A stretch of 64,000 bases of DNA from a bacterium HR28 (GTDB lineage Bacteria > Chloroflexota > Chloroflexia > Thermomicrobiales > Thermomicrobiaceae): positions 124,001 to 188,000 of the forward strand of contig BEIE01000001.1 in the NCBI GenBank assembly GCA_002898255.1, read 5' to 3'. Below are positions 3,992 to 48,405 of the stretch, one piece after another. Under the pieces are notes generated by a model. The model did no database searches. It had not been told where the DNA came from and saw nothing but the letters and a program-made list of their open reading frames with translations. The first letter of the stretch is position 1; each line of letters starts with the position of its first letter. Position numbers and translations under genes: made by a program.

Positions 3992-5317
3992 ATGGAGCAG
4001 CAGCAATCTCCTCCGCGTACCCGGCATCCTCGGAACCTTCCACGGTTGTGGCTCTGCATCGCGATCATCGTGAGCAGCCTCGCGCTGGTTCAACCCACCA
4101 GCGCCACCGAGGCGTCCCCACCGGATGCCCCTCTGATACTCACGCAATTTCCGGATTCACTGCACAACGGGGGCAGGATTGACGCCCTCTGTCTCCAACT
4201 CTTCCCCGACTATTCCCGTGAACGTGTGAATCTCGGCTTGAGGAACAACGCCAAAGAGGACCTGACGCTGCGACTGCCAGCGATGGTTCTCGATGGGCCG
4301 ATCGCCCGCGGTCAGGAGCAAAGTTGGGTCTTTGGCGGTTCGGCCCGACTGGGCGGTTGGGTCGCGACCTTCGTCGAGCCGTACACCGAAGGCCAGGCGT
4401 ACATTACCTGTGGCTTCGAGAACGACTTCTTCATCCTTCCACAGCATCGGAAGGTGCTGTACTACGATAAGGGACGGATCGAACTTCTCGAGCAACATCA
4501 ATCGTTCCTTGCTCCATCTTTCCCCGTGGGGTGTGAGTTCTACGACGAGGTCAGGGGCCGCCCGCTCTCCATCTACTGTGGCGTCCAGAACAGCACGCTT
4601 GTCTGGAGCACCGACCAGCCATGGACCTTAACAGCTGGTCGGCTGTCCTGGGAGATGATGACTGGACAGATCCAGGTCGGTCACGCTGACTTCGTCCGCC
4701 GTGAGCCGGCCCAGATACCGATCGCGGGTGACCCCGGCAGTGCCGGTCTCACATACGCCGCGATGGGTCAGGCGATGGAGTTTCATCGCTGCGCCGGCCC
4801 GTGCCCGACCGGTCAGCCTATCCACACCACGCTGGATGCAAGCGGGACGATCGGGGTGGATCCCAGTCTCGACCGCTACGGCGTCACGTATGTGGATACA
4901 AACTCTTCCACTGACTTCAGCGTCGCCAGCGTCTTTTGGGAGTTTCTCGCGAGACCAGGATGGCACCTGCGTGACGTCGGGGTGCTCTCGAGCTATGGGC
5001 CGCGCGGTGATGCGAGCGAATCACTCCTTGGAACCCCGGTCTATGACTCTGTCCGAGTCCCTGGGATTTGGGTCGTCGGTCTCCCGATCACAGAGCCGTT
5101 CTGGACCCACGTTCCCGTTGCGGGACAACCACGGTGGGTTCTCGTCCAGTGCTTTGAGCGCCGCTGTCTCACCTACACCCCTGACAACCCAGAGGGATGG
5201 CGGGTCGAGTTCCCGAACTCGGGGCTCCATTACCTCGAGTGGCGTTATGGCTACGTACCTTCGGCACCAGATTGGGCAACCCCGTGGTGGGACTATGACG
5301 TGCAACCGCGCCGTTGA
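3992..5317 (+). CDS. Secreted protein with C-terminal Chloroflexota FERR/LTYTP-type domain
   Basis: A 441-aa exported protein. Residues 18-38 form a hydrophobic signal segment (LWLCIAIIVSSLALVQPTSA) after a basic N-terminus. The body is beta-rich with several cysteines. The last about 70 residues carry the pattern GLPITEPFW, then VLVQCFERRCLTYTP, then a GLHYLEWRYG ending. I know this arrangement from many secreted proteins of Chloroflexota, usually as a C-terminal module of unknown function. The start is supported by GAAAGGGA 6 nt upstream of ATG 3992. The gene stands alone between decayed sequences and is followed by a strong hairpin terminator. No enzymatic motif is seen; function unknown, probably at the cell surface. 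Confidence 0.85.
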   Translation: MEQQQSPPRTRHPRNLPRLWLCIAIIVSSLALVQPTSATEASPPDAPLILTQFPDSLHNGGRIDALCLQLFPDYSRERVNLGLRNNAKEDLTLRLPAMVLDGPIARGQEQSWVFGGSARLGGWVATFVEPYTEGQAYITCGFENDFFILPQHRKVLYYDKGRIELLEQHQSFLAPSFPVGCEFYDEVRGRPLSIYCGVQNSTLVWSTDQPWTLTAGRLSWEMMTGQIQVGHADFVRREPAQIPIAGDPGSAGLTYAAMGQAMEFHRCAGPCPTGQPIHTTLDASGTIGVDPSLDRYGVTYVDTNSSTDFSVASVFWEFLARPGWHLRDVGVLSSYGPRGDASESLLGTPVYDSVRVPGIWVVGLPITEPFWTHVPVAGQPRWVLVQCFERRCLTYTPDNPEGWRVEFPNSGLHYLEWRYGYVPSAPDWATPWWDYDVQPRR

Positions 5318-28472: not shown

Positions 28473-29906
28473 ATGCGTGTCTTACGATGGTTGCGCCAAA
28501 GCGGGGAACGAACCCGCTGGCAGCTGGGTCCTCGGGCTGTCGCCGTGCTTGTGGCGCTAGCGTTCGTGGTTGGTGTAGGACTGCCTACACTGGCGCAACA
28601 ATGGGTTGGAGCGGGGCACCGGATGCCGAATGCACCTCCAAGCTGGGCAGTTGCGCCGGCAGCACCCAAGCCCGGTTGCCGTTACTTCCCAGAGACACAG
28701 CACAACCTATGCGGCGGCTTTTTGCAGTACTGGGAGAGGTACGGGGGCCTCCTTGTGTTTGGTTACCCGCTCACCGAAGAATATTTCGCGCCAGAGTTGG
28801 GCCACGCAGGACACAACGGCGTTGTCACCCAGTGGTTTGAGCGAGCCCGTTTTGAGTGGCATCCCGGCGAGATTCCAGATCGCTATGATGTGCTCCAAGG
28901 CCACGTTGGCCGCGAGATCCTGGCCATGCTTACGGCCCCAACACCGACCCCAACACCCACACCGACTCCGACGCCGACGCCAACGGCCACACCGACACCC
29001 ACGCCAACCCCGACGCCGACGCCGGTGCCACCGACGGGAGTGCTGCGGATCACGGACGGCGGACTTAATCCGGTGATCGGTCCGAAGCTCAGCGGTGAAG
29101 CGTACGTTGTACCGATCCGCGACGCTACCGGCAGCTTGATTACCGATGCTTCAGCGTACTTTGCGGCTCGCACGCTTCTCATTACCTGTGATACCAATCA
29201 ACCGGCTGGCACGCCGGTGCGGCTAGTCGAATACGAGGAGGTGAATGGCGGCGCCAACACTGGCGACATCCTGAAGTTGATCTTCCCGACGCCAATTTCG
29301 CTCGGTAACAACAACTCATATGTGAACGGTAATGTGAATTTCAACGGTGACTTTAGCGCCACTGCGACACTAACGCCGACCAACGCCGATGACGGCGACG
29401 TCTTGCGGATTGAGTGCTGGGTGGACGGCTTCGCCGGCCTCCAAAAGGTGACCGAGGTTCGTATCTTCTTCGCAAAGCTCACCTTGACGTTGCAAGACGA
29501 CGGCACCGCCAATAACGCCAAGGTGCGGGCTGCTGCTCCGGATGGCCCGAACGCCGATGGCCGCCTCGTCGCCCGCGTCCTGCGCGGTACCACGGGGATC
29601 AACAGCGTGCCCGTGATTTTGGAAAGCCGGAACCTTGAGACTGCGGCTGTGGATGACTACATCTTCTCGAATAGCGCCGCACCCGCGTGCAACAGCATGA
29701 CCAACGTCCAAGTTTCCGGCACAACCTCCACCGTTGGCCCAGGCGCCGGCACTGTCCAGCAGGATGTGTACTGGCAGTGTGATGACGGCGACGTTCCGAA
29801 TCCGGTTCCCGAAGCCGGTGTCTTCCGCGTCTACTGGGACGCGAATCAAGACGGCGTTGCTAACGACCCATACGTGGAGGTGCAGCAGACTAACCAGATC
29901 TCCTAG
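28473..29906 (+). CDS. Secreted FPETG-domain protein with Thr/Pro linker and beta-rich C-terminus
   Basis: A 477-aa exported protein. The signal segment is AVAVLVALAFVVGVGLPTLA. Residues about 65-150 form the domain seen in many Chloroflexota exported proteins: CRYFPETQHNLCGGFLQYW, then GGLLVFGYPLTEEYF, TQWFERARFEWHPGE and [22 protein letters not shown] linker of about 40 residues follows. The C-terminal 290 residues are beta-strand rich, with Asp/Asn loops such as YWDANQDGVANDP resembling EF-hand-like calcium loops. The strong promoter, Shine-Dalgarno and terminator indicate an abundant monocistronic product. A role in the cell surface or adhesion is inference; there is no catalytic motif. 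Confidence 0.88.
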   Translation: MRVLRWLRQSGERTRWQLGPRAVAVLVALAFVVGVGLPTLAQQWVGAGHRMPNAPPSWAVAPAAPKPGCRYFPETQHNLCGGFLQYWERYGGLLVFGYPLTEEYFAPELGHAGHNGVVTQWFERARFEWHPGEIPDRYDVLQGHVGREILAMLTAPTPTPTPTPTPTPTPTATPTPTPTPTPTPVPPTGVLRITDGGLNPVIGPKLSGEAYVVPIRDATGSLITDASAYFAARTLLITCDTNQPAGTPVRLVEYEEVNGGANTGDILKLIFPTPISLGNNNSYVNGNVNFNGDFSATATLTPTNADDGDVLRIECWVDGFAGLQKVTEVRIFFAKLTLTLQDDGTANNAKVRAAAPDGPNADGRLVARVLRGTTGINSVPVILESRNLETAAVDDYIFSNSAAPACNSMTNVQVSGTTSTVGPGAGTVQQDVYWQCDDGDVPNPVPEAGVFRVYWDANQDGVANDPYVEVQQTNQIS

Positions 29907-32729: not shown

Positions 32730-32792
32730 CCCTCACCCCCCTTCGCCCCCCTCTCCCGCAATGTGCGGGAGAGGGGGGTTGGGGGGTGAGGG
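32730..32792. repeat. Palindromic repeat type A
   Basis: Arms of about 28-30 nt (CCCTCACCCCCC...CTCTCCCGC) surround the loop AATGT. It is preceded by several half-arm fragments from 32620. Confidence 0.88.
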
Positions 32793-32993
32793 GAGCCTAC
32801 GGGAGAGGGAAGCCTGCGGAAGCAGGGATGCGAGTGAGTGGGCCTGAGGAAGAAAGGCGGGCGGATGAGACTAGGGAAGCCTGTGAGCGACGCAGCTGCC
32901 ACTCTCTCCCCTTTAGCACCGGTAACCACGATTACTCTCTCGTCCCCTGGGACCGCCCTCACTCCCCTTCGCTCCCCTCTCCTGCAGTTACCA

Positions 32994-33371: not shown

Positions 33372-34259
33372 TTAGTTGGCCGTGATCCCCTGCAGCCGCG
33401 CCACCGCCACCGTCGAGAACAACGCCAGCCCTACATACCAGCGCACCCGCCACCGCCGCGCATTCTTCGTCTCCAACGCCCCCACTTCCTCTACCGTAAT
33501 CCCGCCATTCTCTAGCCCCATGAGCCCACTCGGCCCGAACTTGACCGCGTAGATCGAGGAAAGGTTATTCCCTGTCCCTAACGTCTCGTCCTCCGGCACA
33601 AAGTCGTCAACCAAGACCGGTATCCCGTCATAGGTCACAATCCGTTGCCCAAACTGGTCTACTTCCGTCTCCAGCACGCTCCCGCTCGACCGCCGCAGCT
33701 GCGCGAGCTTGCGACGCGTCCGCTTCGCCATCAGCAGCGCGTCCGGCTTCCCTGGCTTGACGAGGTCAATCAGCTGCTCTAGCAGCTCGAGTGTCAAACT
33801 CCCCCCATTCGGCCCCGGCTGAATCGTCTGACTCGCCGGGACCAGCTTGCGTAACCCGTCGAACTGCTTGGGATTGACCGCGCTATCACCGCGGTAAAAC
33901 GCGTTTAAGAAAGCATGCGCCACCGCCTTCGCCTTCTGCTGCAGAACCACCGCCTCAAGCTGATTGGGATCCCGGTACGTCTGCAGGAGAAAATGGTCGA
34001 TGTCCGCATCCCCACCCAGAATCTTCAGACCGGTCGTCACCTGCTCGAACGTCGGAGTCGACTCGGTCCAGGTATCGCCAACATCGTAGAAGTCGGTCGC
34101 CGGAAGGGTTCCTTCGCGGTTGTACGTCAGCCCGGTGCCGACCACCTCCATGAAGGGCAGACGCTGCAACACTGGTGATTCCATCACGATCGTCTCGATC
34201 ACCCCACGCAGCAAGAGGTCGTCAGTGAGCTTCGCTGCTTCCACCTTGGTCAAGGCCAT
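33372..34259 (-). CDS. Phage major capsid protein (HK97-fold type)
   Basis: A 295-aa protein starting MALTKVEAAKLTDDLLLRG. The N-terminal helix, VLQRLPFMEVVGTGLTYNRE (the E-loop-like strand), FEQVTTGLKILGGDADIDHF and the C-terminal ARRWRVRWYVGLALF strand pattern match small HK97-fold capsid proteins of siphoviruses and podoviruses. No protease gene is nearby and there is no obvious delta domain, so assembly may use a separate scaffold. The start ATG 34259 follows AAAGGAG; a TTG two codons upstream is less likely. It lies downstream of portal and connector, the normal head-gene order. Confidence 0.8.
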   Translation of the reverse strand: MALTKVEAAKLTDDLLLRGVIETIVMESPVLQRLPFMEVVGTGLTYNREGTLPATDFYDVGDTWTESTPTFEQVTTGLKILGGDADIDHFLLQTYRDPNQLEAVVLQQKAKAVAHAFLNAFYRGDSAVNPKQFDGLRKLVPASQTIQPGPNGGSLTLELLEQLIDLVKPGKPDALLMAKRTRRKLAQLRRSSGSVLETEVDQFGQRIVTYDGIPVLVDDFVPEDETLGTGNNLSSIYAVKFGPSGLMGLENGGITVEEVGALETKNARRWRVRWYVGLALFSTVAVARLQGITAN

Positions 34260-34509
34260 CCTCAACGCTCCTTTCTCGCATCAGTTTCGATTGCCCAACA
34301 CTGCCCAACCGCGGAGGTGGCCCACCGCGGAGACAGCATCGTCTCTCCCTGCACCATCAGGGGCGCCTCTTCCCGCGCCTCGCACCAGCAGTGCTCTGGG
34401 GACGGGCAAGCCATGTTGCCGCGGTCTCCTCACTGTGCTGGCGGTCGGCCTCCGCGCCGCTCCCGACCAGCACACCACGAGGGCGCACAGGGCCGAAGCC
34501 AGCGGCGCC

Positions 34510-35058
34510 TCAGAGCGCCACCACCTGGACAGCCCGGCGCAACGCCCGTGCTGCCTCTTCTTGCGCCGCCTGCGCTGCCGCGATGGCTGCAACCAAGTGA
34601 TCGGTTGGTCCTTGCCAGCGGGCCTGCCGAACTAGCGCCTGTCGCAGAAGCTGTAGGGTGGCGACAGCCAAAACGAAGGCTGCTTCCGCCTCGCCCGCAA
34701 TGGGAAGCAGACCGCTCTCCTGGTCGGGGAGAGTCCGCTCCACCCAGCAACGGAGCTCCAGGCTCCCGACCAGCGGCTCTTCCAGGTAAAGCTGCCCGCC
34801 CCAGACGGCCCATCCGCTGAGGGGCCAACCTTGGTGAAGCACTGCCAGGACGCGGCGCACTCCACTGGGCAGCGGCAGGCGGTCGGTGCCACCAGCGTTC
34901 AGAGTCAGGCTGGCTTGGCGAGGCAACGCTGCATCTAACTGGGCCAGGGCTGCAGCGAGCGCAGCATCGAGGTCGGCATCGCTGAACGTCGCCGGGAGTG
35001 CTGTATCGCTCAGTTGGCGCCGGAGCGCCTGGCGGGCAGCAGCAAGCGTCAGCGTCAC
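34510..35058 (-). CDS. Head-tail connector-like protein
   Basis: A 182-aa protein starting at GTG 35058 after GGAGGT. The N-terminal helical part (MTLTLAAARQALRRQL, then DADLDAALAAALAQLDAAL) followed by a compact beta region (SGVRRVLAVLHQ, WAVWGGQLYLEEP) and a long C-terminal helix resembles head-completion adaptors placed between portal/capsid and tail genes. No sequence family is recognised with certainty. Its position between portal and capsid supports the call. Confidence 0.6.
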   Translation of the reverse strand: MTLTLAAARQALRRQLSDTALPATFSDADLDAALAAALAQLDAALPRQASLTLNAGGTDRLPLPSGVRRVLAVLHQGWPLSGWAVWGGQLYLEEPLVGSLELRCWVERTLPDQESGLLPIAGEAEAAFVLAVATLQLLRQALVRQARWQGPTDHLVAAIAAAQAAQEEAARALRRAVQVVAL

Positions 35059-35451
35059 GGTTTAGACCTCCGTTCTGTCCCCGGAAACGTGGCCACAGAT
35101 CTCTCAGCGGCAGCTCGGCGCGGCATGAGACAACGATGCCCCGGGCACGTCCCGGCAGCGCCGGTGAACGGGGGATCGGCGTCTGGTGGGCCTCGTAGGC
35201 GGTGGGCGCGACGCGCAGCGCCCCTCCACCGGCAACGTCTCCTCCCCCGTCGTTGTCGCGGCGCCATGCATTGCGGCTGCAGCTGCGAAGCGGGCTGGCT
35301 ACCGCCCGGACTGCGACCGTCAGTGGCGCGCCGAAGGCAGTGCGCTCTGGCCTGTGGTTGCCGTGTCACACCGGCCCCCCCTCTTTCGCAGGCTCCGGTC
35401 GCCTCCGGTCCCTCTCCCGTCTTTGCCCCCACCCCCCTAGCCTCTAGGCTC

Positions 35452-35560
35452 CCCTCACCCCCCCAACCCCCCCTCTCCCGCGATGTGCGGGAGAGGGGGG
35501 CGAACGGGGGTGAGGGCGGTCCCCCTCTCCCGCTCCGTGCGTGAGAGGGGGCCAGGGATG
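35452..35560. repeat. Palindromic type A repeats in the connector-portal gap
   Basis: The long unit has arms at 35452-35481 and 35487-35516 with loop GATGT; a short imperfect unit follows. The whole gap 35059-35972 contains no supported gene, only further half-arms to about 35700. Confidence 0.85.
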
Positions 35561-35972
35561 AGGGCGGTCACTGCGGGAGAAGGGGTGAGAGTGGTCCCGC
35601 GGGCAAGGGTGGTGAGGGCAGTCCCGGTGGGCGAGGGGATAAGGGTGGTCCCGCAGGCACGGGCTGTGAGGACGGTACCGGGATCAGGGGGTGAGGGTGA
35701 TCCGGAACTCTAGCCTGAGAGTGATGCCGGAGCTCAGCGGATGAGTGCGGTAAACCCAGGAGAGCGGCGCCAAAGTGGGAGAGATCGCCAGCGGGTGCGG
35801 GCAGCGGTTCCACCCAGACCACCGGCTAGCCGCGAGCACACCGTCATCTCGTCCATCCCGCCGGCAGGGCACGATGCGTCGCGGCCTGCCACCCTGCCCC
35901 GCACGGTCACCCGTCCCCCTCGCGCACCAGCGAACTCGCGACCCTGCACCACACGCCGACCCACCCCAACGA

Positions 35973-37358
35973 TTACCGCGACGTCGGCGGCAAGCCGCCG
36001 GACCCGCTGTCACCCTCGTGCTGGTCTTGCACCCCCTGCGATGTCGCGCTGCGCAACGCTCGTCCCCCGCGGGTCTCCTCCATGAAGGACCGCTCCTGCT
36101 GCACCCGTCCCAGCTCAGCCTCCGGATCAAGCGAGCCCAGCTCACGCGCAGCAGTCAGGCGCGAACGGATACCGGCACCGACAAGCGCCACCTGGATCCG
36201 TGCCGCCCGCTCCTCATCGACCGGGAGCGTGGGGCCCCAAATCAGCTCGACCGCACGGGCACCGGCCAGATCGACACCGCCGAAGCGCTCAACGAGATCG
36301 AGCACCCGCCAGGTCCGCTGGCGCAGGGCGCGCTCCCAGGCCCGTCGCTTGCGTTCGACCTTGTGCACGAGCGGCTGGAGCTCGAGCTCCAACGCCGCGC
36401 CCGAAAGGTCGCGCCCGTGGTCGCCAAAGGCGGCCCGCGGCACCTCAGCCAAGTCATGCAAGACCTGGAAGAGCAGGCGCACGTACTCCAAGTGCAGGGC
36501 AACCCCACCGCCACTCAGCATGTCGAGGAGGTAGGCGCGGCTTCCCTCTGGGAGTTCCCAAATCGCCCCTTCCTCTGCTCGAATCCCTTCGCTCGCCGTG
36601 ACGTTCTCCAGGACGACGATCGGGTTCCCGCTCACCTGCAGGATGCGGGAGAGCACCGTCATCCGCCGGTTGATCTCCCGGCAGACGTCGAGCAGATCGG
36701 CCAGGTCGCTCTCGCCCCAGACGTCCCCCGGAATCGGCGTGTTCGGCAGGAGCACGTATGGGATCCACCCGTACGGGTTGCGTCCCTCGTGGACCAGCTG
36801 CTCACCGACCAGGAGGCGATATCGCTCGGCCGTCCACTCCTCCCGCACCGTCACCCAGCCGTCAGGGCCGAGCAGAGGGAGTTTGCGCCCAAAGACCTGC
36901 TCGACCGCCCCCACGGTCAGCGGGTACGTGTGGGCCACGGCCACCACCTCGCGCTGGTCATCCGGGCGGGTTGCGACGACGAGCTGCGCCGGGTCGACCG
37001 TGGTCAATCGCGGGCGGCGACGTTCCCGATCCCACGTGACCTTAAAAGCAGCGTCACCGAGTACTGCTGCATCGAGCGCGGCTACATAGTCGAGGCCGTG
37101 CCAGTCGTCTTCGCTTGCCAGTTGGGCCAGGTAGCGCTCGGCGGCAGCTGAATCAGGCACGCTGTAGCGCACTGGCCGGCTAAAAAGGACACTGGTCACC
37201 TTGCGGACGAGCGCACGGGCGTAGTTGAGCACCAGGCGCGTTTCGCCGGGGCGAGCGCGATCAGGCCACTGCCGACCCTCCCAAAAGGCGAGATATTCAC
37301 GATAGCGGGCCCAACGGGCCCGATCAGCCGCGCTCGGTTCCAGGGGCACTGGGTCCAT
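35973..37358 (-). CDS. Phage portal protein (SPP1 gp6-like)
   Basis: A 461-aa portal. It has a charged N-terminus with RYREYLAFWEGRQWP, the wing-type region RLVLNYARALVRKVTSVLFS, a core with AVLGDAAFKVTWDRERRRPR and VDPAQLVVATRPDDQREVVA, and the long stem helix DLADLLDVCREINRRMTVLS followed by RILQVSGNPIVVLENV. These are characteristic of Gp6-type portals, which form the dodecameric DNA gate at a capsid vertex. Length and domain order are normal. A good Shine-Dalgarno (GGGAGGAG) precedes ATG 37358. Confidence 0.88.
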   Translation of the reverse strand: MDPVPLEPSAADRARWARYREYLAFWEGRQWPDRARPGETRLVLNYARALVRKVTSVLFSRPVRYSVPDSAAAERYLAQLASEDDWHGLDYVAALDAAVLGDAAFKVTWDRERRRPRLTTVDPAQLVVATRPDDQREVVAVAHTYPLTVGAVEQVFGRKLPLLGPDGWVTVREEWTAERYRLLVGEQLVHEGRNPYGWIPYVLLPNTPIPGDVWGESDLADLLDVCREINRRMTVLSRILQVSGNPIVVLENVTASEGIRAEEGAIWELPEGSRAYLLDMLSGGGVALHLEYVRLLFQVLHDLAEVPRAAFGDHGRDLSGAALELELQPLVHKVERKRRAWERALRQRTWRVLDLVERFGGVDLAGARAVELIWGPTLPVDEERAARIQVALVGAGIRSRLTAARELGSLDPEAELGRVQQERSFMEETRGGRALRSATSQGVQDQHEGDSGSGGLPPTSR

Positions 37359-37599
37359 CAGCGTCTCCTCCCTTCGGAGATCCGGTCAACTGGCATGGGT
37401 CGCACGCGATGCCGCCGCGGCGCCCTCTCCGGGAAATTCCTTCTCAGCCGGCTGCCATTCGGATCCCGCCCGGCGCGACCGGGATAGCGACAGCAGGCAA
37501 CGCCGCAACCTGGTCGTCGCGATACCGCCCCGCCCCAGAAACTCATCTGCAGGCACCACTCTCAGCCCCTCACCCACAGGGCCACCCCCCCACCCCTGT

Positions 37600-38112
37600 C
37601 CCCGCTCCGGTGGTTGCCCGCTCACTCCCGGCCGCGCTCCTGCAGGCTCCCCTCACTCCCCGTCTTTGCTCCTGCCAGTTCCCCGCACCGCCATCACCGC
37701 TCCCGGCGGCTCCCCTCACCCCCAACCCTTTCCCGCCTTGGCTCCCCTCACTTCCAGCCCCTCTCCTGCCTTTGTTCCCACCACCCGCTCCCGTAGGCTC
37801 CCCTCCACCCGCAACCCCCGCTCTCGTAGACTCCCCTCACCCCCAACCCGTCTCCTGCCTTTGTTTCCCTCACCCCCAACCCCCTCTCCCGTAGGCCCCC
37901 CTCACCCCCCAACCCCCCTCTCCCGCAGGTTGCGGGAGAGGGGGGCAAGGGGGGGGTGAGGGCGGCACCCCCTCTCCCGCAACATGCGGGAGAGGGGGAA
38001 AGGGGGTGAGGGTGATCACCGCGGGAGAGGGAGCAAAGGGGGTGAGGGTGGTCACCGCGAGAGTGGGGTGAGGGTGGTAACCACGGGCAAGGAGGCGAGG
38101 GTCGTACTGGGG
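37600..38112. repeat. Palindromic type A repeats in the portal-terminase gap
   Basis: A long unit at 37899-37962 (loop AGGTT), a second at 37969-38012 (loop AACAT), and many C-rich half-arms from 37600 and G-rich half-arms to 38100. The 37359-37600 part has nothing recognisable. Confidence 0.85.
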
Positions 38113-39612
38113 CTAGGGGTGAGGTCCGGGACCACTTCCTACCCGCCCGCGGGCCACACGCGGCCGCCAGTCTTCGCTATCGAGCAAGGCAGCCAACGCT
38201 GCACTCACCGCTAAGTCGTCGTGCGGTTCACCCCACCAGCGCAGGAGCCGACCCGGCCCTGGTGCCACCACCGCCTTGAGGCTGGCCAGCTCGGCGAGGA
38301 ACGCCTCCCCAAGGGTCGCTAGTTCCGGCGGCGTTGGTGGCTCCAGGGCATAGTCACGATAGCGGCCACTCTCGACCAGCCCAACGAAGGCCCACCCGAG
38401 CTCCGACTTCAGGCGCGGAGTGAAGACGATCGGCCGAACCCGCTCCCCCAGCGCTTGCCGCAGGAAGGCAGCAAGCCCAGCGCCCACGCCGGTGCTATCG
38501 ACCACCACCCGCTCGGCCCGCCAGGCCCGGGCCAGCCGGACGAGCTCCTCATACTGCCGCACCTGGCGTGCTCCCACCCAGCGGGCTCGCCACACCGCTT
38601 CGTAGCGTGGCTGTTCACCGGGAACAATGCGCACCACGGTGAGCGCTGTAGCATCACGGCGCTGCGTCGGCTCAGTGCGCAGCTCCTCGCTGCTTGTCTC
38701 GTCTTCCCCAGCCACATCGACCAGCAGGGCATAGCGTTCTCCACTCCGCGGCCCGACCAATGCCGCGTGGTGCCCCCGGACAAGGGCAAGGCGTTCGAGC
38801 GGGAAGAGACGCCCCTGCCCAGAAAGCTCCTCCAGGCAGTACTCGGTCCGGATAAAGGGATGGCCTGCCCCCAGCTGTGCCATCCGCTCCTCGACATGGG
38901 CGCCATAGGCTGGGAGTTCGGTCGCCACCAGCGTCCACGGGACACGCCACACGCGCCGTCGCCCATCCTCCTGCTCCAGCGCGCTGAGGTAGCGCAGCTC
39001 GCGGGCAAGCAGCGACGTGCTCTCCCAAGGCGTCCCCAAGTAGAGCGTTGGCGCCCCGGTCGAGGCGGCCATCGGGGCAAAGGCACTGTCCCACCGTTCG
39101 GGTCGGATGTCCTGCGCCTCGTTGGCCACTAACAGGAGGGAGGCGGTCAAGCCACGGACGTTGGCGCTTGGCCCAGCCGAGGCGTAGCGCACGACGGCCC
39201 GTCCAAGCGCGACGCTGCTCCCACTCACCTGGGGCACGAGGTCCAGTGAGGCGAGCAAGGTCGCCAGCCGCGGCGCTTGCAGCACGGCGCGCAGTCGCTC
39301 CCGGGCCACAAGGCCCTGGGGTCGCCAGGAGGGGAGCGCGACCACCACTTCACCACCTCGCCAGTGGTAGCGCAGTAGCAGCCAGGCCAAGAGCTGTGCC
39401 AAGGCCTCGTCTTTCCCCGACTGGCGACTGAACAGCCAGAGCTGGGCGTGCGGTGCAGTGCTATCGCCCCGCGCCCGGCCTACGACCATCGCGGCAGCAG
39501 CGGCCACTGGCCCCGCTTGGTAGCCGCGGAGTGCCCGGTCCGGAAGGAGAAGGTGTGAAAAGGCGATCGGATCGGCCAGAAGGCGCCGGAGGAGCGTCAG
39601 CGGGAAGGTCAT
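38113..39612 (-). CDS. terL: Phage terminase large subunit
   Basis: A 499-aa packaging motor. The ATPase domain has a Walker A-type FSRQSGKDEALAQLLAW and a Walker B-type ASLLLVANEAQDIRPERW, with a coupling motif at TLYLGTPWES. The C-terminal RNase H-like nuclease shows YALLVDVAGEDE, RVVVDSTGVGAGLAAFL and EPHDDLAVSAALAALL, supplying the acidic metal ligands. Length is full and all motifs are intact. Its ATG overlaps the stop of the preceding holin-like gene (ATGA). No small terminase subunit is clearly identified. A decayed duplicate of its 3' end lies at 21781. Confidence 0.95.
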   Translation of the reverse strand: MTFPLTLLRRLLADPIAFSHLLLPDRALRGYQAGPVAAAAAMVVGRARGDSTAPHAQLWLFSRQSGKDEALAQLLAWLLLRYHWRGGEVVVALPSWRPQGLVARERLRAVLQAPRLATLLASLDLVPQVSGSSVALGRAVVRYASAGPSANVRGLTASLLLVANEAQDIRPERWDSAFAPMAASTGAPTLYLGTPWESTSLLARELRYLSALEQEDGRRRVWRVPWTLVATELPAYGAHVEERMAQLGAGHPFIRTEYCLEELSGQGRLFPLERLALVRGHHAALVGPRSGERYALLVDVAGEDETSSEELRTEPTQRRDATALTVVRIVPGEQPRYEAVWRARWVGARQVRQYEELVRLARAWRAERVVVDSTGVGAGLAAFLRQALGERVRPIVFTPRLKSELGWAFVGLVESGRYRDYALEPPTPPELATLGEAFLAELASLKAVVAPGPGRLLRWWGEPHDDLAVSAALAALLDSEDWRPRVARGRVGSGPGPHP

Positions 39613-39911
39613 CGCTCTTCAGGCGGCGTCGCGAACTCCCGACGCACGAACCGGGCCGTTTCATAGGCGCCACTCGCCCCCAAGCCAAGGAGGACCGTCG
39701 CCACTGCCCAGCGCACCACCGGCTCCAGCGCCGGGGCAAACGGCAGTGCCTCAGCCGCGCCGACGACCAGGCTCGCGGCGAGAAGGGTCGCCAGCGGGGC
39801 ATACCGCGTGGGAAGTCCGACCCGTTTGGCTGCCTCAACCAGGAGCGGGACGAGCACCACTGCCGGGACACCAGCGACCAGAAGCGTCTCAGCGACGAGC
39901 GGTTCAGTCAT
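39609..39911 (-). CDS. Small membrane protein, holin-like
   Basis: A 100-aa protein with three hydrophobic segments (VAGVPAVVLVPLLVEA, YAPLATLLAASLVVGAAEAL, VVRWAVATVLLGLGASGAY) and a charged C-terminus (RFVRREFATPPEER). Size, topology and position in a cassette that also holds an endolysin fit a holin, the pore that releases the lytic enzyme. It is translationally coupled to the terminase gene. Holins are not recognisable by sequence alone, so this remains inference. Confidence 0.6.
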   Translation of the reverse strand: MTEPLVAETLLVAGVPAVVLVPLLVEAAKRVGLPTRYAPLATLLAASLVVGAAEALPFAPALEPVVRWAVATVLLGLGASGAYETARFVRREFATPPEER

Positions 39912-40241
39912 CGCACCCCCTTTCCAGAACTCCCCTCAGAAGACTCCGGTCATCACGACCACTCCCCACTCTCCGCATCACACGCGCTCCAGAAGGCCCA
40001 CGGCAGCAGCGACATGCCATCGCCACTAGAGCTGCAGATCCCAGCACCGTGGTACACACGGCCAGCGCGGCGAAGTTGCAGCGCCCCACCGGCGACGTCG
40101 CCCACAGCTCAGCCGTCCGGCTCGCGCGGCTGCTCTCCGTTGGGTCGTGCTGTAGACACGACGCCTTCGCCGCGTCCCTGACGGCGGGCGTCGCGCCGCC
40201 TGTGCCCTCCTGCCCTGTCTGTGCCCGCAGGAGGCAAGCAC
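39912..40241. other. 330-bp gap without a gene
   Basis: No supported frame and no type A repeat. Confidence 0.5.
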
Positions 40242-40466
40242 TCACTGCCACCAGCGGAGCAAAAGCTCGAGCACGACTGCGCCGACGACGGTGGTGAAGA
40301 GCTGGTCGACCCGTCGCTTGACGTCCGCCACGTCGCGCGCCAGCTGCTCGACCATCTGGCGGGTGAGGAGCTCGTAAGCAGTCTGCGGGCGTTCCGGCAG
40401 CGCTGATGCGTGGCGGCCGGCCACGACGCGGCGTAGCCGGTCGATTCCAGCCTGCGTCTCGTCCAT
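40242..40466 (-). CDS. Small coiled-coil/TM protein, XhlA-like
   Basis: A 74-aa protein. ATG 40466 is chosen for its strong ribosome site (GGGGAGGGGTGAG); the frame is open further upstream without support. A helical region (LLTRQMVEQLARDVADVKRR) leads into one C-terminal membrane segment (LFTTVVGAVVLELLLRWW). This coiled coil plus terminal TM layout is that of XhlA/haemolysin-type accessory holin proteins of phages. It precedes the holin-like gene in the same direction. Confidence 0.6.
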   Translation of the reverse strand: MDETQAGIDRLRRVVAGRHASALPERPQTAYELLTRQMVEQLARDVADVKRRVDQLFTTVVGAVVLELLLRWWQ

Positions 40467-40984
40467 CTCACCCCTCCCCTCGACTCGCACCATCCGAGCC
40501 CAACCGTGTGGGGCAGCCGGCGTAAGGAGCCGCGCCCCAACACCAGCGGTGCATCCCTGCTCGTGTCGCCGTGCCATACCGCGCGCCCGCCTGTTGCCGG
40601 CACACCCTTCCTCCTGCCTGCCAGGTGAGGCTTGCCCCCTCGCCCGCCTTTGCTCCCCTCACCTCCGTCTCGTCTCTCGTAGGCTCCCCTCAGCCCCAAC
40701 CCCCTCTGCCGTAGGCTCCCCTCACCCCCAACCCCCGCTCCTGCAGGCTCCCCTCAGCCCCAACCTCCTCTCCCGTAGGGTGCCCTCACCCCCAACCCCC
40801 GCTCCCGTAGGGTCCCCTCACCCCCCAACCCCCCTCTCCCGCATGTTGCGGGAGAGGGGGGCGAGGGGGGTGAGGGCGGCACCCCCTCTCCCGCAGGTTG
40901 CGGGAAAGGGGGCAAAGGGGGTGAGGGTGGTCACCGCGGAAGAGGAAGCAAAGGAGGTGAGGGCGGTCACCGCGGCAATGAGGG
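40467..40984. repeat. Palindromic type A repeats in the XhlA-127aa gap
   Basis: A long unit at about 40815-40876 (loop ATGTT) and a second at about 40880-40928 (loop AGGTT, one arm mismatch GGGAAAGGG), preceded by C-rich half-arms from 40670. No gene lies in this gap. Confidence 0.85.
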
Positions 40985-41368
40985 TCACCCCACCTCGCCG
41001 CCTTCACCTAACCCCAACTCCACAAGCAGCTGGGTCAACGCACCAGCCAAATCGTCCGCCTTGCGCCCAGCGAGCAGACGCTGCGCCCGCAGCGCCCGCA
41101 CCTCCACATCGATCAGCCTCGCCACATGACTCACCAGCCGACGCGGATCGGGCTCGGCCAGCAGCACCTCCGCGAGCACCTGGCGCAACGCCTCGATCTC
41201 CCGCTCCAGGTCGCCGGTCGCTGCCTCAGCCCGCAAGAGGGCCAAGATCTTCTCCGCGAGCTCGGCCCGCTCTACCGGTACCTCCGTTGCCGCAGCCGAC
41301 TCAGCTGCCTCCCGACAGCGGCGCGCCGCACGCCGCGTGCGGCGACGGCCACCTGGCATCTCACTCAC
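40985..41368 (-). CDS. Uncharacterised 127-aa phage-module protein
   Basis: A basic N-terminus (RRRTRRAARRCREA) precedes a long helical body with coiled-coil character (AELAEKILALLRAEAATGD, LEREIEALRQVLAEVLL). The start overlaps the endolysin stop (ATGA), so the two are coupled. Location and the basic, helical nature would allow a small terminase subunit or a DNA-binding role, but I see no helix-turn-helix and do not assign a function. Confidence 0.7.
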   Translation of the reverse strand: MSEMPGGRRRTRRAARRCREAAESAAATEVPVERAELAEKILALLRAEAATGDLEREIEALRQVLAEVLLAEPDPRRLVSHVARLIDVEVRALRAQRLLAGRKADDLAGALTQLLVELGLGEGGEVG

Positions 41369-42621
41369 ACCCGCTCTCCCTCCCTGGCCCGCTGCGCCAG
41401 CTGCTCCGCGCCGAGTCGGCGCAACAGCACCTGGCGACCCGGCGGCAGCTCGGTGTGCCGCTCAAAACAGGCCCGTTCAAACCACTGCACCACATGCTCG
41501 TGCCCGTCCTCACAACGCTCTGTCTGCTCACCACTGAGCGGGTATCCGAAGAGCTCCAACCCGCCGCGCTGCTCCCAGTAGGCAAGAAAATCGCCGCGTA
41601 CCCACTGTCCCGTCTCAGGGAAATAGCGGCCCCCTCGTGCCGCCAGGAGCTCACCCACCCGCCGCTGAAACGCAGCGAATCCGGCCGCCAACAGACGTCG
41701 TGGGCAGTTTTTACCGCTCCAGCGCTGGTGCGGCACCACCCGTTCCGGGCTCAGCTGGAAGGTCCGGCAGAGTACCGCCGCCAGCTGGGCACCATGTTCC
41801 TGCGTCCGCTGCCAGTCAGAGTCAGCGTTGACGCAGAGCTCGATGGCTACCGACGTGCGGTTGCCCGGACCGTTCGCACCGTCGCCAGCGTGCCAACCGA
41901 CCTCAGTAGTCGGCAGCAGCTGCACCACCTGCCGATCGTCCACCACAAAGTGGAAACTGACCACTTCACTTCCCCCGCCAGCATGGACAAAGCGCCGATG
42001 CGCTTCAGCATCAGCCCCCCGCGCTTCGTTCGCTGTCTCGTGGATTGTGACCCAGGCAGGCCGAAGCGGCAGACCAGGGCGATTGCCCGCGCCCCGCGGC
42101 ACCCAGTCGACCCGCAGCGGCAGGCCAGGAAGCGGCTCCTCCGCGTGCCGGGCCATGAACTCCCGCACCGCTGCCACGTACGCCGCGGGATCGTTACCGT
42201 CGCTGGCCGGCGCCCACAACGGGACGATCTGCTCGACCGTCTCCGCCCGCTGCTCTCGGTAGACGAAACCGGGCTCGACGAGGCGCCGCGCGAGATCACG
42301 GAATCCGGCTTCCCAGTTCGGATAGCGCCACCACTGGCCGCGCCCGGGAACCTGGACCGGCTCCCCCTCCCTCGTCCGGCTGCTCCGCGTGGCACCGGGA
42401 TTCCGCAGCCCATAGGTCGGCACCAGGCCAACCGTGCCCAGCCGCGACTCATGGTGAAAGATGGCGAGAGCAAAGAGCGGATCGACCCCCTCGCTGGCGA
42501 CAGCGGCCCAGCAGGCCTGGGCCTCAGGCGTGGCTGGTGACCCCGCAGCAGCCAAGAGAGCGGCAAACCGCTCAGGACTGATCCGTGGCAACACCCCAAC
42601 CACCAGGAACTCCCCCAGCAT
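41365..42621 (-). CDS. Endolysin: lysozyme-like domain, amidase_2 domain and FPETG domain
   Basis: A 418-aa three-part protein without a signal peptide. Residues about 15-150 resemble a glucosaminidase/lysozyme domain (ALAIFHHESRLGT, TYGLRNPGATRSSR, RYPNWEAGFRDLARRL). Residues about 165-310 form an N-acetylmuramoyl-L-alanine amidase (PGRP-like) domain with the zinc ligands in VTIHETANEARGA, VVPHQRWSGKNCPRRL and the region VGWHAGDGANGPGNRTSVAI. The C-terminal 75 residues are RYFPETGQWVRGDFLAYW, then GGLELFGYPLSGEQTE, VVQWFERACFERHTEL and VLLRRLGAEQL, the module shared with host secreted proteins. It would cut peptidoglycan at two bonds and presumably bind the host surface with its C-terminus. 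Confidence 0.9.
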   Translation of the reverse strand: MLGEFLVVGVLPRISPERFAALLAAAGSPATPEAQACWAAVASEGVDPLFALAIFHHESRLGTVGLVPTYGLRNPGATRSSRTREGEPVQVPGRGQWWRYPNWEAGFRDLARRLVEPGFVYREQRAETVEQIVPLWAPASDGNDPAAYVAAVREFMARHAEEPLPGLPLRVDWVPRGAGNRPGLPLRPAWVTIHETANEARGADAEAHRRFVHAGGGSEVVSFHFVVDDRQVVQLLPTTEVGWHAGDGANGPGNRTSVAIELCVNADSDWQRTQEHGAQLAAVLCRTFQLSPERVVPHQRWSGKNCPRRLLAAGFAAFQRRVGELLAARGGRYFPETGQWVRGDFLAYWEQRGGLELFGYPLSGEQTERCEDGHEHVVQWFERACFERHTELPPGRQVLLRRLGAEQLAQRAREGERV

Positions 42622-42934
42622 CGTCGTTCCCCCTCACGTGACTATCCAGCGCGCCAGCGAGCAGCCGAGCCGCACCTCTGCGCCAACGGGGCACGTCAGT
42701 CTTTGACCGACGTGCCTGGCAGCCTCCCCGGGCCGACGCGTTGCTACAGGGAGGAAGAAGTTCCCCTTCCGTTCGATGGCACCGGCTCCACACAGAACTC
42801 CAGAGCAGTCCTCGCTGTTCCCCGAGCTGACTCCTGGTGCACACTAGGCCCTCAACCGGCCCAAGCGCCTGATCGAGTGCCCGAAGCGCCGTACTGCTCG
42901 CGCCAGGAGCACCCGGTGCGCGCCGTCGACCAGC
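42622..42934. other. 310-bp gap without a gene
   Basis: No supported frame and no type A palindrome in this gap. Confidence 0.5.
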
Positions 42935-43492
42935 TCATGCTCCACGACTGGCAATGCCCCGCAGCAGCTTCTCAAGCGGCGAAAGGCGCGCGACGTCCCC
43001 CGCGTCAGCTCGTCGCGGCGCCCCTGCCGCGACCGGTGGGTTAGCAGCTGGTGCCTGAGCCAAGAGCCGCTCCCGCAGCGCCACGGCCTGCTCGGCGCGA
43101 GCCAAGAGTTCGGCAAGCGTTTCTCCGTACACGAGCTCCGGCAGCGCGTCGGGGTATGCCCGCAGCACGAGTGACCGCAACTCGTCCAGCGGCACGGTCG
43201 CCGTGAGCGCTGTTTCACCGTCGGGTAGTGCTGCCCCGCCGGGTGCTGCCGCGGCGCTGTCCTCCGCGGCAACGCTGTCCTGTCCGCGCGCTGTCCCCTC
43301 CCCGTGTACCGGCAGCGTCTCGTGTGCGTCCCGTTCTCCCGTCACCGCTTCCCGCCAGCCGCTCGTTCCGAGCTCCTTGGCCTCTGGTGACGCGTAGCCG
43401 TGCATCGTCTGCTCGACACCGCGCGTCATGTCAGGGCGCTCCACAGGCTCCACGTGCTGCTCCAGAGGTTCCCCGGCCACCTGGTCGCGCAT
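42935..43492 (-). CDS. Uncharacterised acidic 185-aa protein, first gene of the phage module
   Basis: A strong Shine-Dalgarno (AAAGGAGGTG) precedes ATG 43492. The N-terminal 100 residues are acidic and low-complexity; residues 100-155 are helical (VPLDELRSLVLRAYPDALP, GETLAELLARAEQAVALRER), and the tail is Pro/Ala-rich. The composition resembles phage scaffolding or small structural proteins but gives no firm family. Its clear ribosome site and position ahead of the endolysin support it as a real module gene. Confidence 0.65.
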   Translation of the reverse strand: MRDQVAGEPLEQHVEPVERPDMTRGVEQTMHGYASPEAKELGTSGWREAVTGERDAHETLPVHGEGTARGQDSVAAEDSAAAAPGGAALPDGETALTATVPLDELRSLVLRAYPDALPELVYGETLAELLARAEQAVALRERLLAQAPAANPPVAAGAPRRADAGDVARLSPLEKLLRGIASRGA

Positions 43493-44746: not shown

Positions 44747-46207
44747 TTACTCCTTGGCCTCACCCGAGAAGAGCCGCCAAGCCGCTTCGACACGCCCCGC
44801 CACCCCCAGCTTCCGGTAGGCCCGCTCGAGGTGTGTCCGCACCGTCCCGATCCGCACCCCAAGCCGATCCGCGATCTCCTTGTTGGCCAGCCCCTGCAGT
44901 GCCAGCTCCAGGACCTCCGCCTCACGCCGCGACAACCGGTACTGCACCACCAGCCGCTGCCGCAGGTCTGCCGGCAGCATCGGCATGTCTCGAGTGGCTG
45001 ACCCGGCCGGGTCGTCCCCAACCGCTCCTCCCAGAACCCCTGCTCGAGCCGCCGTGTGGGAACCCGCGGGTACCATCGTCTCCTGCTCTGTTCGTGCCGG
45101 CGTGTCGCCCTCCTGAGCTGCGTCCTGGCTCGGTTGCTCGAGCGGCTCCGCAGCAGCCCCTTCGGCGACGCTCTGCTCCTCCCGCACCACCAGGCTCGCC
45201 GGATCGCTGGGTACAAGCAGCGCTGCCCCGAGCAACCCCAGCATCGCCACCAGCGGCCCACCGGTCGTCGGTGCCAACGCCTCACTCACCGTCGTCAGCG
45301 GCACGCCCAGACCGATTGCCAGCACCATCACCCCGAGCCCCAGGGGATACGCCCGCCCCCACCCACGCTCCTCTCCCAACCGCGTCCACCAGCCGACATC
45401 CAGCAACGCCCAGCAGCCGACCGCCGCGGCAGCGACCACTCCGGCGGCGCCCCGGCCCACGACCCAGCCCACCAGCGCCAGCCCCAAGAGGAGGAGTCCA
45501 GTCCGCACGGCCGGCCCAGCCTGCCCCACACCCGCGAGCACTGCCGCCAACGGCAGCAGCACCAGATACGGCACCACTCCCACGCCCCCACCGCCAATTG
45601 CGGGCAGGAGTGCAGCATAGGTCAGTCCCCCAGCCAGGTAGCACGCCCCGACGGCCACGAGCGGCCGCCACCCAGGCCAAGCGAGCGGTAGCGGCCCCGG
45701 CCGTACCAGCACTCCCTGCCCAACGACGAGGAGCCCCGCCAACCCGCCAGCCACCCGCAGCACAAACCCCGGCGTGGTGGCGTCCAGTACAAGCAGCGGC
45801 AGGTTGGCCAGCGCCGCTCCCAACGCGATGGCCCACGCCCGCCGTCCACGATCCAGTCGCCCCAGCTCCCACGCTGCAGTGGCGACCGGCAAGGCCGCCG
45901 CGACCCCACCCAGTACCAGAGTCAGGAGTGCTGGTCGGCCGCTGAGTCCGACACTCAGCAGCCCCACCGCGGCGACCAGCAGCCCACCCCAGCGCGCGAG
46001 CCCTACCACGCGGCGCTCCGCCAGCAACCCGAGGAACACCAGCGCAACGCCGTGCGCCAGCGCAAACCACGTGCTTGCCCCCGGGCCCGCCAGCTCCTGC
46101 CCCACCGGGCCGAGCGGTACCAACAGGACCCAGGTCATCGGCAGGCACAGGAGCAACGCAGAGCGCAGCGTGGGCCCCGTGGAACTGAGGAAGAGCCGCC
46201 CGCCCAC
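44747..46207 (-). CDS. Membrane-embedded LuxR-type transcriptional regulator (12 TM + HTH)
   Basis: A 486-aa protein. Residues about 10-370 contain twelve hydrophobic segments (for example MTWVLLVPLGPVG, WGGLLVAAVGLLSVGLSG, VVPYLVLLPLAAVLAGVG, AYPLGLGVMVLAIGLGVPL) in an MFS-like layout. A flexible acidic linker of about 70 residues follows, then a classical LuxR DNA-binding domain: LSRREAEVLELALQGLANKE then IADRLGVRIGTVRTHLERAY. Such proteins sense a ligand at the membrane and regulate a neighbouring gene. GTG 46207 is chosen because AAGGGGGA lies 5 nt upstream and because the sequence before it is not protein-like. A palindromic operator candidate lies upstream of its promoter. The regulated target is unknown. 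Confidence 0.88.
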   Translation of the reverse strand: MGGRLFLSSTGPTLRSALLLCLPMTWVLLVPLGPVGQELAGPGASTWFALAHGVALVFLGLLAERRVVGLARWGGLLVAAVGLLSVGLSGRPALLTLVLGGVAAALPVATAAWELGRLDRGRRAWAIALGAALANLPLLVLDATTPGFVLRVAGGLAGLLVVGQGVLVRPGPLPLAWPGWRPLVAVGACYLAGGLTYAALLPAIGGGGVGVVPYLVLLPLAAVLAGVGQAGPAVRTGLLLLGLALVGWVVGRGAAGVVAAAAVGCWALLDVGWWTRLGEERGWGRAYPLGLGVMVLAIGLGVPLTTVSEALAPTTGGPLVAMLGLLGAALLVPSDPASLVVREEQSVAEGAAAEPLEQPSQDAAQEGDTPARTEQETMVPAGSHTAARAGVLGGAVGDDPAGSATRDMPMLPADLRQRLVVQYRLSRREAEVLELALQGLANKEIADRLGVRIGTVRTHLERAYRKLGVAGRVEAAWRLFSGEAKE

Positions 46208-46306
46208 ATCTGTCCCCCTTCCCCGTTCATCAGGGCGGCTTAAGGCTGCTGCTGCCGCCTTTCGACCACCTGGACGCAGCGTACAAACGGTTTGCCTGAT
46301 GCCCGA

Positions 46307-46404
46307 AGTATACCGCAATACCCGCTCCTCTGACATTGCCCTCCGAATTTTTGGGAGCAACGGTCTGTCAGATGACAGATATAGCCAGCCGAATCTGTCT
46401 GTCA
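46307..46404 (-). promoter_or_regulatory. Promoter -10 box and palindromic operator of the LuxR-type gene
   Basis: TATACT on the minus strand at 46307-46312 is a good -10 box. Upstream lies the palindrome TCTGTCA-GA-TGACAGA (46364-46379), and a third TCTGTCA half-site at 46398-46404. A regulator site 50-90 bp upstream of the -10 would suit autoregulation. Confidence 0.5.
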
Positions 46405-47178
46405 CCCGACGGATACCCCTTTGGAAGGGCTTCAGCTACTAAGGAAAAGGAAAGGGCAGGCGGCGTGATCACGGGCGCTCGCGGAAACGTCGTCGCAGCG
46501 TGAGAAGGGGTTGGGGAGAGGCACCTAACACATGTGCCCCAGTGCGTCGTGGCTGTCCGGCGGTGTGCGGCTCTCCTCGGGGACCGTCGCGGGGGTGTGT
46601 CCTGACACGGATGAGGCCCTGCTCGGAATTGACGCCGGTCCCTACGCTGGCACTCGACCTCCAAGTCGGCGTGTATGGCCGTCACTGCGGCGACTACGAC
46701 GGCAAGGAGGCTCCGGCATCAGTCCAGGCATCTGGGCACCGAGACCTCACATCGGTAGGAGGCGCACAAATGACCACACGGCACGGGCGACGAGTCACAC
46801 GCCGTGTTTTCCACGCATCCCGCATAGCGCTCCAGCCGTATTGAGCCCGCACCGGGACCACTCCCTGGTAGTGCCACCTCATACCCGGCTTGCTGAGCCA
46901 ATGTCTTGGCACCCGCAGTCTCCGCACCCCTCGGCGCCCCTCACGCTGCAGCTCAGCGGCTCGCTGCGGCGTCTTTTTCTACGCGGAAACGGGTTGGCCC
47001 TTCGACCCGTCCTGTGCTGCACTGGCCAAAAGCACTTTCGGGGGCACCTGACTGAGCCACGACGAGCTAGCTTTCCACGATCCTGGCGCACCACTGAGCC
47101 GCGTGGTCCTCCGCAGTCAGGTGTCACTCTGATTTGCTGTCTGCTGCGTCGTTGTTCGCGCTTATGAGGGGGTTGTCC
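46405..47178. other. Non-coding region between the LuxR-type and subtilase genes
   Basis: No supported gene in 770 bp. It must contain the promoter of the subtilase gene, but no clear -35/-10 pair stands out. Confidence 0.5.
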
Positions 47179-48405
47179 ATGCGGAAGCTGTTACGTCTCA
47201 CCATCGCGGTGGTCCTTTTGCTCGCACTCTTCCCCGCCACGTTTGTGGCGGCGCAATCAGGTGGCCAAGACCCGGGCTTGGTACCAGGACAGCTGGTGAT
47301 CGCCTTCCGCCCTGGCACGTCACTGCAGCAACAGGACGCTGTGATCAGCCGTATCGGCGGAACCGTGGTCTTCGGGATCCCTGAGATCGACGTGGCAGTC
47401 GTCAGGGTAGCCCCCGGCCAGGAGGCGTCTGCTCTGCAGCAGCTCCGGCGCGAGCGCGTGGTCCAGCACGCGGCTCAGGACGTGCGAATTGGTTCGGCCC
47501 AGGTCCCTGGTCCCAACGACCCGCTCCTGTCACAGCAATGGTATGTGGACTTTGTGCAGGCGAGGCAGGCCTGGCAAATGGTCGGTCCAGGGCGGGGTAC
47601 GATCATCGCGGTGGTGGATGACGGCATCGACGTGAGCCATCCCGACCTCCAGGGCAAGATTGTCGACTTTGTGATTGCGCCAGGCATCTCGCCGCTTGCT
47701 GCTAATCCGAGCGACGGTCGACATGGGACTCATGTGGCTGGGACGGCCGCAGCCGCCACCAACAACGGCATCGGTGTGGCTGGGATTTGCCCGACCTGCC
47801 GCATTCTGGCGATCCGCGCGTACAGCGACTTCCTCGGGCAAGGCTCCGTCAGCACTGCTGCCTGGTCCATTGTGTATGCCGCGAATCACGGTGCACGGGT
47901 CATCAATATGAGCTTCGGTTTCCAAAAGCCTGGAGATTTTCCTGACATCAAGCCCATTGGTGACCGTGCACTTGCCTATGCAGCACGTCGCGGTGTCGTG
48001 CTCGTGGCAGCTGCTGGAAACGACCGCCTTACCTACCCGCGCGGCTTTCCGCAATCGAGTCCGCTCGTCATCAGCGTAGCGGCTCTGACCCCGGCTGGGA
48101 GCAAGGCCGACTTCTCACGCTGGGGCCGCTGGGTCGCCATTGGTGCACCAGGTGTTCAGGTCCTCGCTCCGGTGCGCGGTGGCGGATATGCGCCCTTAGA
48201 CGGTACCTCCATGGCGAGCCCCATCGTTGCCGGTGTCGTGGGGCTCATGTTTGAGTCCGGCATCTGCAGCACAGCGAGCTGCGCCCAGACGCGCCTCCTT
48301 ACCTCAGCAACCACCCACCCGGGCCTCAACCGATACTGGCCGGCCGGCCGCATCGTTAATGCTTGCCGTGCCGCCACCAACGAGTGGTGGCGGTGCGCTA
48401 ACTAA
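47179..48405 (+). CDS. Secreted subtilisin-like serine protease (S8)
   Basis: A 408-aa secreted protease. The signal peptide is LLRLTIAVVLLLALFPATFVA. A propeptide of the I9 style follows (LVIAFRPGTSLQQQDAVISR, IDVAVVRVAPGQEASALQQL). The catalytic domain shows all three triad motifs: AVVDDGIDVSHPDLQGK (Asp), DGRHGTHVAGTAAA (His) and DGTSMASPIVAGVVGL (Ser), plus the oxyanion Asn in LVAAAGNDRLTYP. Two Cys pairs (GICPTCR and GICSTASC) may form disulfides. The start is ATG 47179 after GAGGGGG; an ATG five codons upstream is possible. It is monocistronic with a strong terminator, and probably nutritional or surface-processing. Confidence 0.93.
   Translation: MRKLLRLTIAVVLLLALFPATFVAAQSGGQDPGLVPGQLVIAFRPGTSLQQQDAVISRIGGTVVFGIPEIDVAVVRVAPGQEASALQQLRRERVVQHAAQDVRIGSAQVPGPNDPLLSQQWYVDFVQARQAWQMVGPGRGTIIAVVDDGIDVSHPDLQGKIVDFVIAPGISPLAANPSDGRHGTHVAGTAAAATNNGIGVAGICPTCRILAIRAYSDFLGQGSVSTAAWSIVYAANHGARVINMSFGFQKPGDFPDIKPIGDRALAYAARRGVVLVAAAGNDRLTYPRGFPQSSPLVISVAALTPAGSKADFSRWGRWVAIGAPGVQVLAPVRGGGYAPLDGTSMASPIVAGVVGLMFESGICSTASCAQTRLLTSATTHPGLNRYWPAGRIVNACRAATNEWWRCAN

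Follow-up and report, generated by a model that had tools for sequence, protein, structure and literature searches.

The window analyzed here, a 64,000-nucleotide stretch of the genome of bacterium HR28, contains a block of phage genes, and the endolysin in this block ends in a module that also occurs on secreted proteins encoded in the same genome. What does this module do, and how did a phage enzyme and host proteins come to share it? We conclude, with a probability of about three in four, that the endolysin depends on a holin and degrades peptidoglycan, that its C-terminal ~80 residues form an LGFP-fold module that binds the wall, and that the module descended within a lineage of endolysins. 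The core idea of an earlier note on this DNA, that endolysin and host have a wall-binding module in common, is thus probably right. Coordinates are given in Table 1.

Table 1. Features of the window. Positions are those of the whole stretch; aa, amino acids.
Feature	Position	Strand	Evidence or remarks
Secreted protein with divergent module, 441 aa	3992..5317	+	Hydrophobic N terminus
Divergent module of the 3992 protein, with insertion (aa ~303-420)	4898..5251	+	HMM 23.6 bits; best match of the model is MytA LGFP
Secreted single-module protein, 477 aa, adjoins phage block	28473..29906	+	Hydrophobic N terminus
LGFP-like module of the 28473 protein (aa 69-151)	28677..28925	+	52% identity to the endolysin module; HMM 114 bits
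Phage block: capsid, portal, large terminase, holin, endolysin	29967-43492	-	
Probable tail protein, 600 aa	29967..31769	-	Kept in 8 of the loci searched
Major capsid protein	33372..34265	-	phrog_212, E 1e-77; GP7
182-aa protein, no function given	34510..35058	-	In the block in G174, G166, G318, and G315
Portal protein (SPP1 Gp6-like)	35973..37358	-	PF05133, E 3e-20; phrog_64
Terminase large subunit	38113..39612	-	PHROGs; Terminase_6C
Holin-like membrane protein, 100 aa	39609..39911	-	phrog_1299 (holin), E 3.4e-10
111-aa protein with hydrophobic C-terminal stretch (read from sequence)	40242..40577	-	Kept in 11 loci
127-aa protein, possibly small terminase (guess), ends at endolysin	40985..41368	-	Kept in 7 loci
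Endolysin, 418 aa	41365..42621	-	ORF; Amidase_2, E 1.8e-20 (Pfam); many PHROG endolysin/amidase families
LGFP-like module of endolysin (aa 331-410)	41392..41631	-	Homology, HMM, AlphaFold model, fold match
Amidase_2 domain of endolysin (aa 187-308); candidate zinc ligands H194, H298, and C306, with K304	41698..42063	-	Pfam
Weakly glucosaminidase-like N-terminal domain of endolysin (aa 36-160), HHESRLG at 56	42142..42516	-	PF01832, E 0.022
185-aa protein upstream of endolysin	42935..43492	-	Near a capsid or tail-like gene in several loci

Domains and proposed action of the endolysin

The open reading frame that the earlier note had described exists, on the minus strand, and all of the C-terminal motifs that the note had quoted (RYFPETG, FGYPL, and QWFERACFE) are present: in the protein, RYFPETG begins at residue 332, FGYPLSG at 358, and VQWFERACFE at 378. 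The middle part of the protein matches endolysins or amidases in PHROGs, and we take H194, H298, C306, and K304 to have the roles of their counterparts in T7-lysozyme/AmpD-type amidases. The N-terminal match to PF01832 (aa 36-125, E 0.022) is below Pfam's cut-off; among the viral contigs that we scanned, other module-bearing endolysins have stronger matches to this family. The N-terminal domain also occurs, joined to a different C-terminal domain, on membrane-anchored host proteins (family f3; loci L064 and L066-L075). The last ~88 residues have no significant match in Pfam, NCBIfam, or PHROGs.

The endolysin has no signal peptide, as judged by hydropathy, and a holin gene lies close by. Its ratio of nonsynonymous to synonymous substitution rates (dN/dS) is 0.12, and relatives that are 54-82% identical in the catalytic part still carry the module. 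We propose that in the lytic phase, the neighboring holin would release the endolysin, and the module would dock on a wall polymer of this lineage, perhaps the glycan of peptidoglycan itself or another polymer linked to it. The same polymer would anchor the exported L,D-transpeptidases, chitinase-like enzymes, deacetylases, and amidases of the host. The Amidase_2 domain would then cut MurNAc-L-Ala bonds nearby, taking the stem peptide off the glycan. Binding by the single module of the endolysin may be weak.

Two other copies of the module in the window

The earlier note had equated the C terminus of the endolysin with a domain of the secreted protein encoded at 28473, and the two are clear homologs: the last ~88 residues of the endolysin are 52% identical to residues 69-151 of the secreted protein, far above chance (E 4e-22). 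In the secreted protein, the module is followed by a Thr-Pro-rich linker and then by a C-terminal part that matches no family.

The third copy that the note had listed, the related form at the end of the 3992 protein, is real though divergent. It has the form FERR.LTYTP, interrupted by an insertion. It gave E 0.003 in a pairwise comparison and E 0.04 with an HMM of two sequences; with an HMM of 29 sequences, run against all of the six-frame open reading frames covered, it scored 23.6 bits (E 1.8e-5), in a match that spans model positions 25-67 only. The best structure match of the predicted module was the LGFP domain of MytA (Z 5.4; the next match had 3.3), from a model whose alignment is dominated by the other copies and which is therefore biased towards their fold. 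The C terminus of the 3992 protein had zero relatives among the viral contigs searched. Proteins with this divergent FERR.LTYTP-type form of the module are encoded within ~10 kb of the block's terminase gene in four other genomes (G307, G309, G339, and G311; loci L184, L181, L171, and L172).

The note had also drawn on there being three occurrences within 40 kb. With ~20 carriers in the 3.12-Mb genome, a stretch of 64 kb should hold 0.4-0.5 carriers by chance, and the probability of two or more is 0.05-0.09, so two clear carriers in the window are not striking. Nor is the 28473 gene an independent sample, because two sister genomes also have it linked to the block (it keeps its position next to the 600-aa tail-like gene in G174 and is near that gene in G166). 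The 28473 protein may itself be part of the block.

The module has the fold of LGFP repeats

An AlphaFold model of the module, built with 117 aligned copies, had a pLDDT of 94 and a pTM of 0.83. Its only credible match in the PDB was to the LGFP repeats of Corynebacterium glutamicum MytA (6swz and 6sx4). Foldseek gave this match a probability of 0.99-1.00, though with E 0.06-0.12, and VIA gave Z 8.0 against 6swz, with an rmsd of 2.0 Å over 60 residues at 20% identity (the next match had 3.3). The link to MytA comes from fold comparison only; when the profile of the module was searched against PDB sequences, there were no hits. The models of the endolysin and 3992 modules both have MytA LGFP as their best match. 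Among viral models, the best named match was the amidase of Gordonia phage Gsput1.

LGFP (PF08310) is also the only Pfam family that recurs in the module copies (47 of 117, best E 2.9e-5). The endolysin module scores 14.3 bits, below the curated cut-off of 22 bits, and the top score in the genome is 21.2 bits. At the site of the LGFP motif, the G is invariant and the P is kept in at least 90% of the 117 copies, while L and F are replaced, giving the consensus FGYP. The unit is ~80 aa long and does not show the tandem pattern of ~54-residue LGFP repeats. On the predicted structure, we consider the module to be a relative with the LGFP fold; we left it outside PF08310 because it scores under the Pfam cut-off. 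The LGFP repeats of MytA were reported to bind peptidoglycan-arabinogalactan (PMC11299179).

The module is common in Chloroflexota and sits on exported proteins

A search of the whole genome found 40 matches to the module in ~20 carrier open reading frames. These include two L,D-transpeptidases, a GH18 protein, a polysaccharide deacetylase, a CAP protein, an Amidase_2 protein, two further glycoside-hydrolase-like proteins, and SH3 proteins. We read other carriers from their sequences as propellers, NHL-like, squalene-cyclase-like, and Ig-like proteins. Among the secreted carriers of this genome, all 15 with a complete sequence start with a hydrophobic stretch in their N-terminal region (mean hydropathy over 14 residues of at least 2.0), which bears out the claim that the module sits on exported proteins; for both endolysins of this genome and for the controls from the phage block, this value was at most 1.7. 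Most secreted carriers have two modules (83 of 97 open reading frames), and the endolysins have one, at the C terminus.

The earlier note had described the module as widespread in Chloroflexota, and we found it in 157 of the 301 Chloroflexota genomes sampled. In a search across all bacterial and archaeal species, the record titles of the best 80 of at least 572 loci mostly named Chloroflexota; a few were unassigned, and one had a different title. The module was absent from 50,697 records of isolate phages. Ten endolysins from viral contigs with one C-terminal module were scanned; nine have an Amidase_2 domain, several of them together with a glucosaminidase domain, and one has Amidase_3. Several of the module-bearing viral contigs also hold tape-measure or head genes.

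The export pattern, the wall enzymes among the carriers, and the predicted LGFP fold all point to an envelope-binding module that the endolysin has in common with exported host proteins, as had been suggested. The propeller, NHL-like, and squalene-cyclase-like carriers are not obvious wall enzymes, and the module could bind some other surface component. Specifically, it might be a general extracellular module for structural or protein-protein contacts (such as attachment to a surface layer or proteinaceous coat), in which case it would bind a surface protein when on the endolysin. Such a role would suit the diversity of the carriers (propellers, NHL-like, and Ig-like proteins), and the wall of a relative, Thermomicrobium roseum, was reported to be dominated by protein, with little peptidoglycan (PMC2615216). 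We consider it unlikely because a domain with this fold was reported to bind polysaccharide of the wall, because the module recurs strongly on amidases, L,D-transpeptidases, GH18 proteins, and deacetylases, and because it is also present in families far from that of the window. If the module binds a wall polymer, as we prefer, then the polymer may differ from that of Actinomycetota, given the protein-rich wall of T. roseum.

Neither Pfam, NCBIfam, nor PHROGs holds a family for this module. Although ~20 proteins here carry it, and roughly one in two of the sampled Chloroflexota genomes, only now does it have a predicted fold, a plausible function, and a testable class of ligand, and it could serve as a single-domain reagent for a poorly known type of wall.

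Descent of the endolysin module

A tree of 79 module copies has few alignment columns and many weak forks. On it, the endolysin module falls among 16 modules that form one clade (support 92/94) and derive from viral contigs, sister genomes, and genomes of other families. Since L032 is identical to the endolysin L031, all 16 are from endolysins. The 28473 module groups with secreted paralogs (support 100/98). The second endolysin of this genome and some others are placed in different parts of the tree.

The earlier note had suggested that the phage took the module from the host, or the reverse. If a recent capture had joined the endolysin to a secreted protein of the same genome, such as the 28473 protein, then this could account for the 52% identity of modules encoded within 13 kb of each other, and the linkage of the 28473 gene to the block in sister genomes would fit too. 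We rejected capture between these neighbors, which is very improbable on the module tree: the endolysin copy is with 15 other endolysin modules, in a clade separate from the secreted modules of this genome, and the 28473 copy is with its secreted paralogs. Also, several other modules in the genome outscore the 28473 copy against the endolysin module. On this phylogeny, the endolysin's copy appears to have descended with an endolysin lineage and not from the neighboring host genes.

Across the whole tree, about 10 changes between endolysin and secreted labels are needed, and the starred branches force at least two of them. These changes indicate that the module probably passed on more than one occasion between endolysins and secreted proteins, in one direction or the other.

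The second endolysin of the genome has the same architecture and lies in a separate, ordinary-looking prophage (C4:3000-22000; L223). This region has an integrase at C4:3907, its proteins are ~95% identical to those of a viral contig (L052), and it has a relative in another genome (G166, C1:66000-85000). From these features, we accept an ordinary prophage as the setting of the second endolysin, unlike that of the block in the window.

The phage block appears to be inherited with the host

The terminase of the block is present, nearly always as a single copy, in 32 of 81 genomes of the class and in 24 of 33 genomes of the window's order. In a terminase tree, 20 host terminases form one clade (support 100/100) apart from 23 terminases from viral contigs, and within the host clade, the grouping by genus and family largely follows host taxonomy and rpoB. 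(Pairwise Spearman correlations with rpoB are 0.61-0.73, from pairs that are not independent, so trees are the better test; the terminase is the only gene of the block for which vertical inheritance was judged by a tree.) For the capsid, portal, terminase, holin, endolysin, and tail-like genes, dN/dS is 0.035-0.23 with dS near 1, which indicates purifying selection. In 10 genomes, tyrosine integrases were absent from the 120 kb around the terminase gene, or from its contig. An ordinary prophage was rejected for the window block on the lack of a nearby tyrosine integrase and on the terminase tree. By the terminase tree, the dN/dS values, and the copy number, what the earlier note had called the phage module looks more like an old, vertically inherited set of genes than like a visiting phage.

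"Tail" for the 600-aa protein is a guess from its position, as it matches no family. The window has several other features of note. On the plus strand, 21781-21933 encodes a 51-residue fragment that shares 71% identity with the terminase of the block, in the C-terminal part of the latter, and may be the remnant of a second copy or the product of a rearrangement. Directly upstream of the block, 44747-46405 (minus strand) encodes a large membrane protein that ends in a LuxR-type helix-turn-helix, as read from its sequence; it is possibly a regulator. Further along, 47134-48405 (plus strand) encodes, as read from its sequence, an exported subtilisin-like protease whose catalytic motifs look intact.

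Loci of the block type (L166-L185) are found, usually as a single copy, across an order of Chloroflexota. In a search of the phylum, the capsid was found as a single copy with 47-65% identity in scattered families, including six small genomes (1.7-1.9 Mb) of one genus. Given this distribution, the particle genes may predate the order.

Could the endolysin instead belong to a decaying prophage relic and no longer work? Prophage relics that include an amidase were described in the relative T. roseum (PMC2615216), and the genes of the block are spread out and rearranged between genomes. We think that decay is quite unlikely, as the open reading frames are intact, the block is retained across a family, and six of its genes are under the purifying selection described above. 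The "prophage relics" of T. roseum may be the same kind of gene set as the block.

Single-copy terminases, dispersed phage genes, purifying selection on particle genes, the lack of an integration module, and a phylogeny that follows the host are among the traits used to recognize gene transfer agents (PMC9662315). We consider a gene-transfer-agent-like element to be a serious candidate for the block; the absence of the terminase from two genomes of the same genus argues the other way. A module-bearing amidase is present within the block in nine other genomes (families f1, f8, and f82), with differing catalytic parts. It is tentative, at a little under even odds, that the order and its relatives inherit a particle system of this kind, for which the endolysin performs lysis and of which the LGFP-like module is a conserved part. 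A literature search, judged by titles and abstracts, found no gene transfer agent described for Chloroflexota. The setting of the block makes gene transfer by phage-derived particles in this phylum directly testable.

Comparison with known systems

In the choline-binding lysins of pneumococcal phages, the phage lysin and the wall enzymes of the host use one binding module. The sharing that we propose is of the same kind; the pneumococcal module differs in having an unrelated fold and ligand. The closer likeness in fold is to MytA, whose LGFP repeats also have an N-terminal helix and a small antiparallel sheet, a conserved G and P (in FGYP, in the module), and a C-terminal or tandem placement on envelope proteins. 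Unlike MytA LGFP (~54 aa), the module has a unit of ~80 aa, is 20% identical to it, is sub-threshold in Pfam, and usually comes as two units, or as one on endolysins. To our knowledge, a mycolate-arabinogalactan wall is not expected in Chloroflexota.

RcGTA and the Brachyspira agent BhGTA, gene transfer agents with a host-inherited endolysin, resemble the block in their single-copy terminase, dispersed phage genes, and host-following phylogeny (PMC9662315); unlike them, the block is known from its genes. For the endolysin itself, the nearest parallel is in actinophages, a few of whose endolysins have LGFP repeats: mycobacteriophage Barnyard gp39 and the endolysin of Tsukamurella phage TPA2 have a C-terminal LGFP-type domain of the kind found on host wall proteins (PMC3314691). 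Barnyard gp39 has three tandem repeats of canonical LGFP and is from another phylum, whereas the endolysin studied here has one divergent module.
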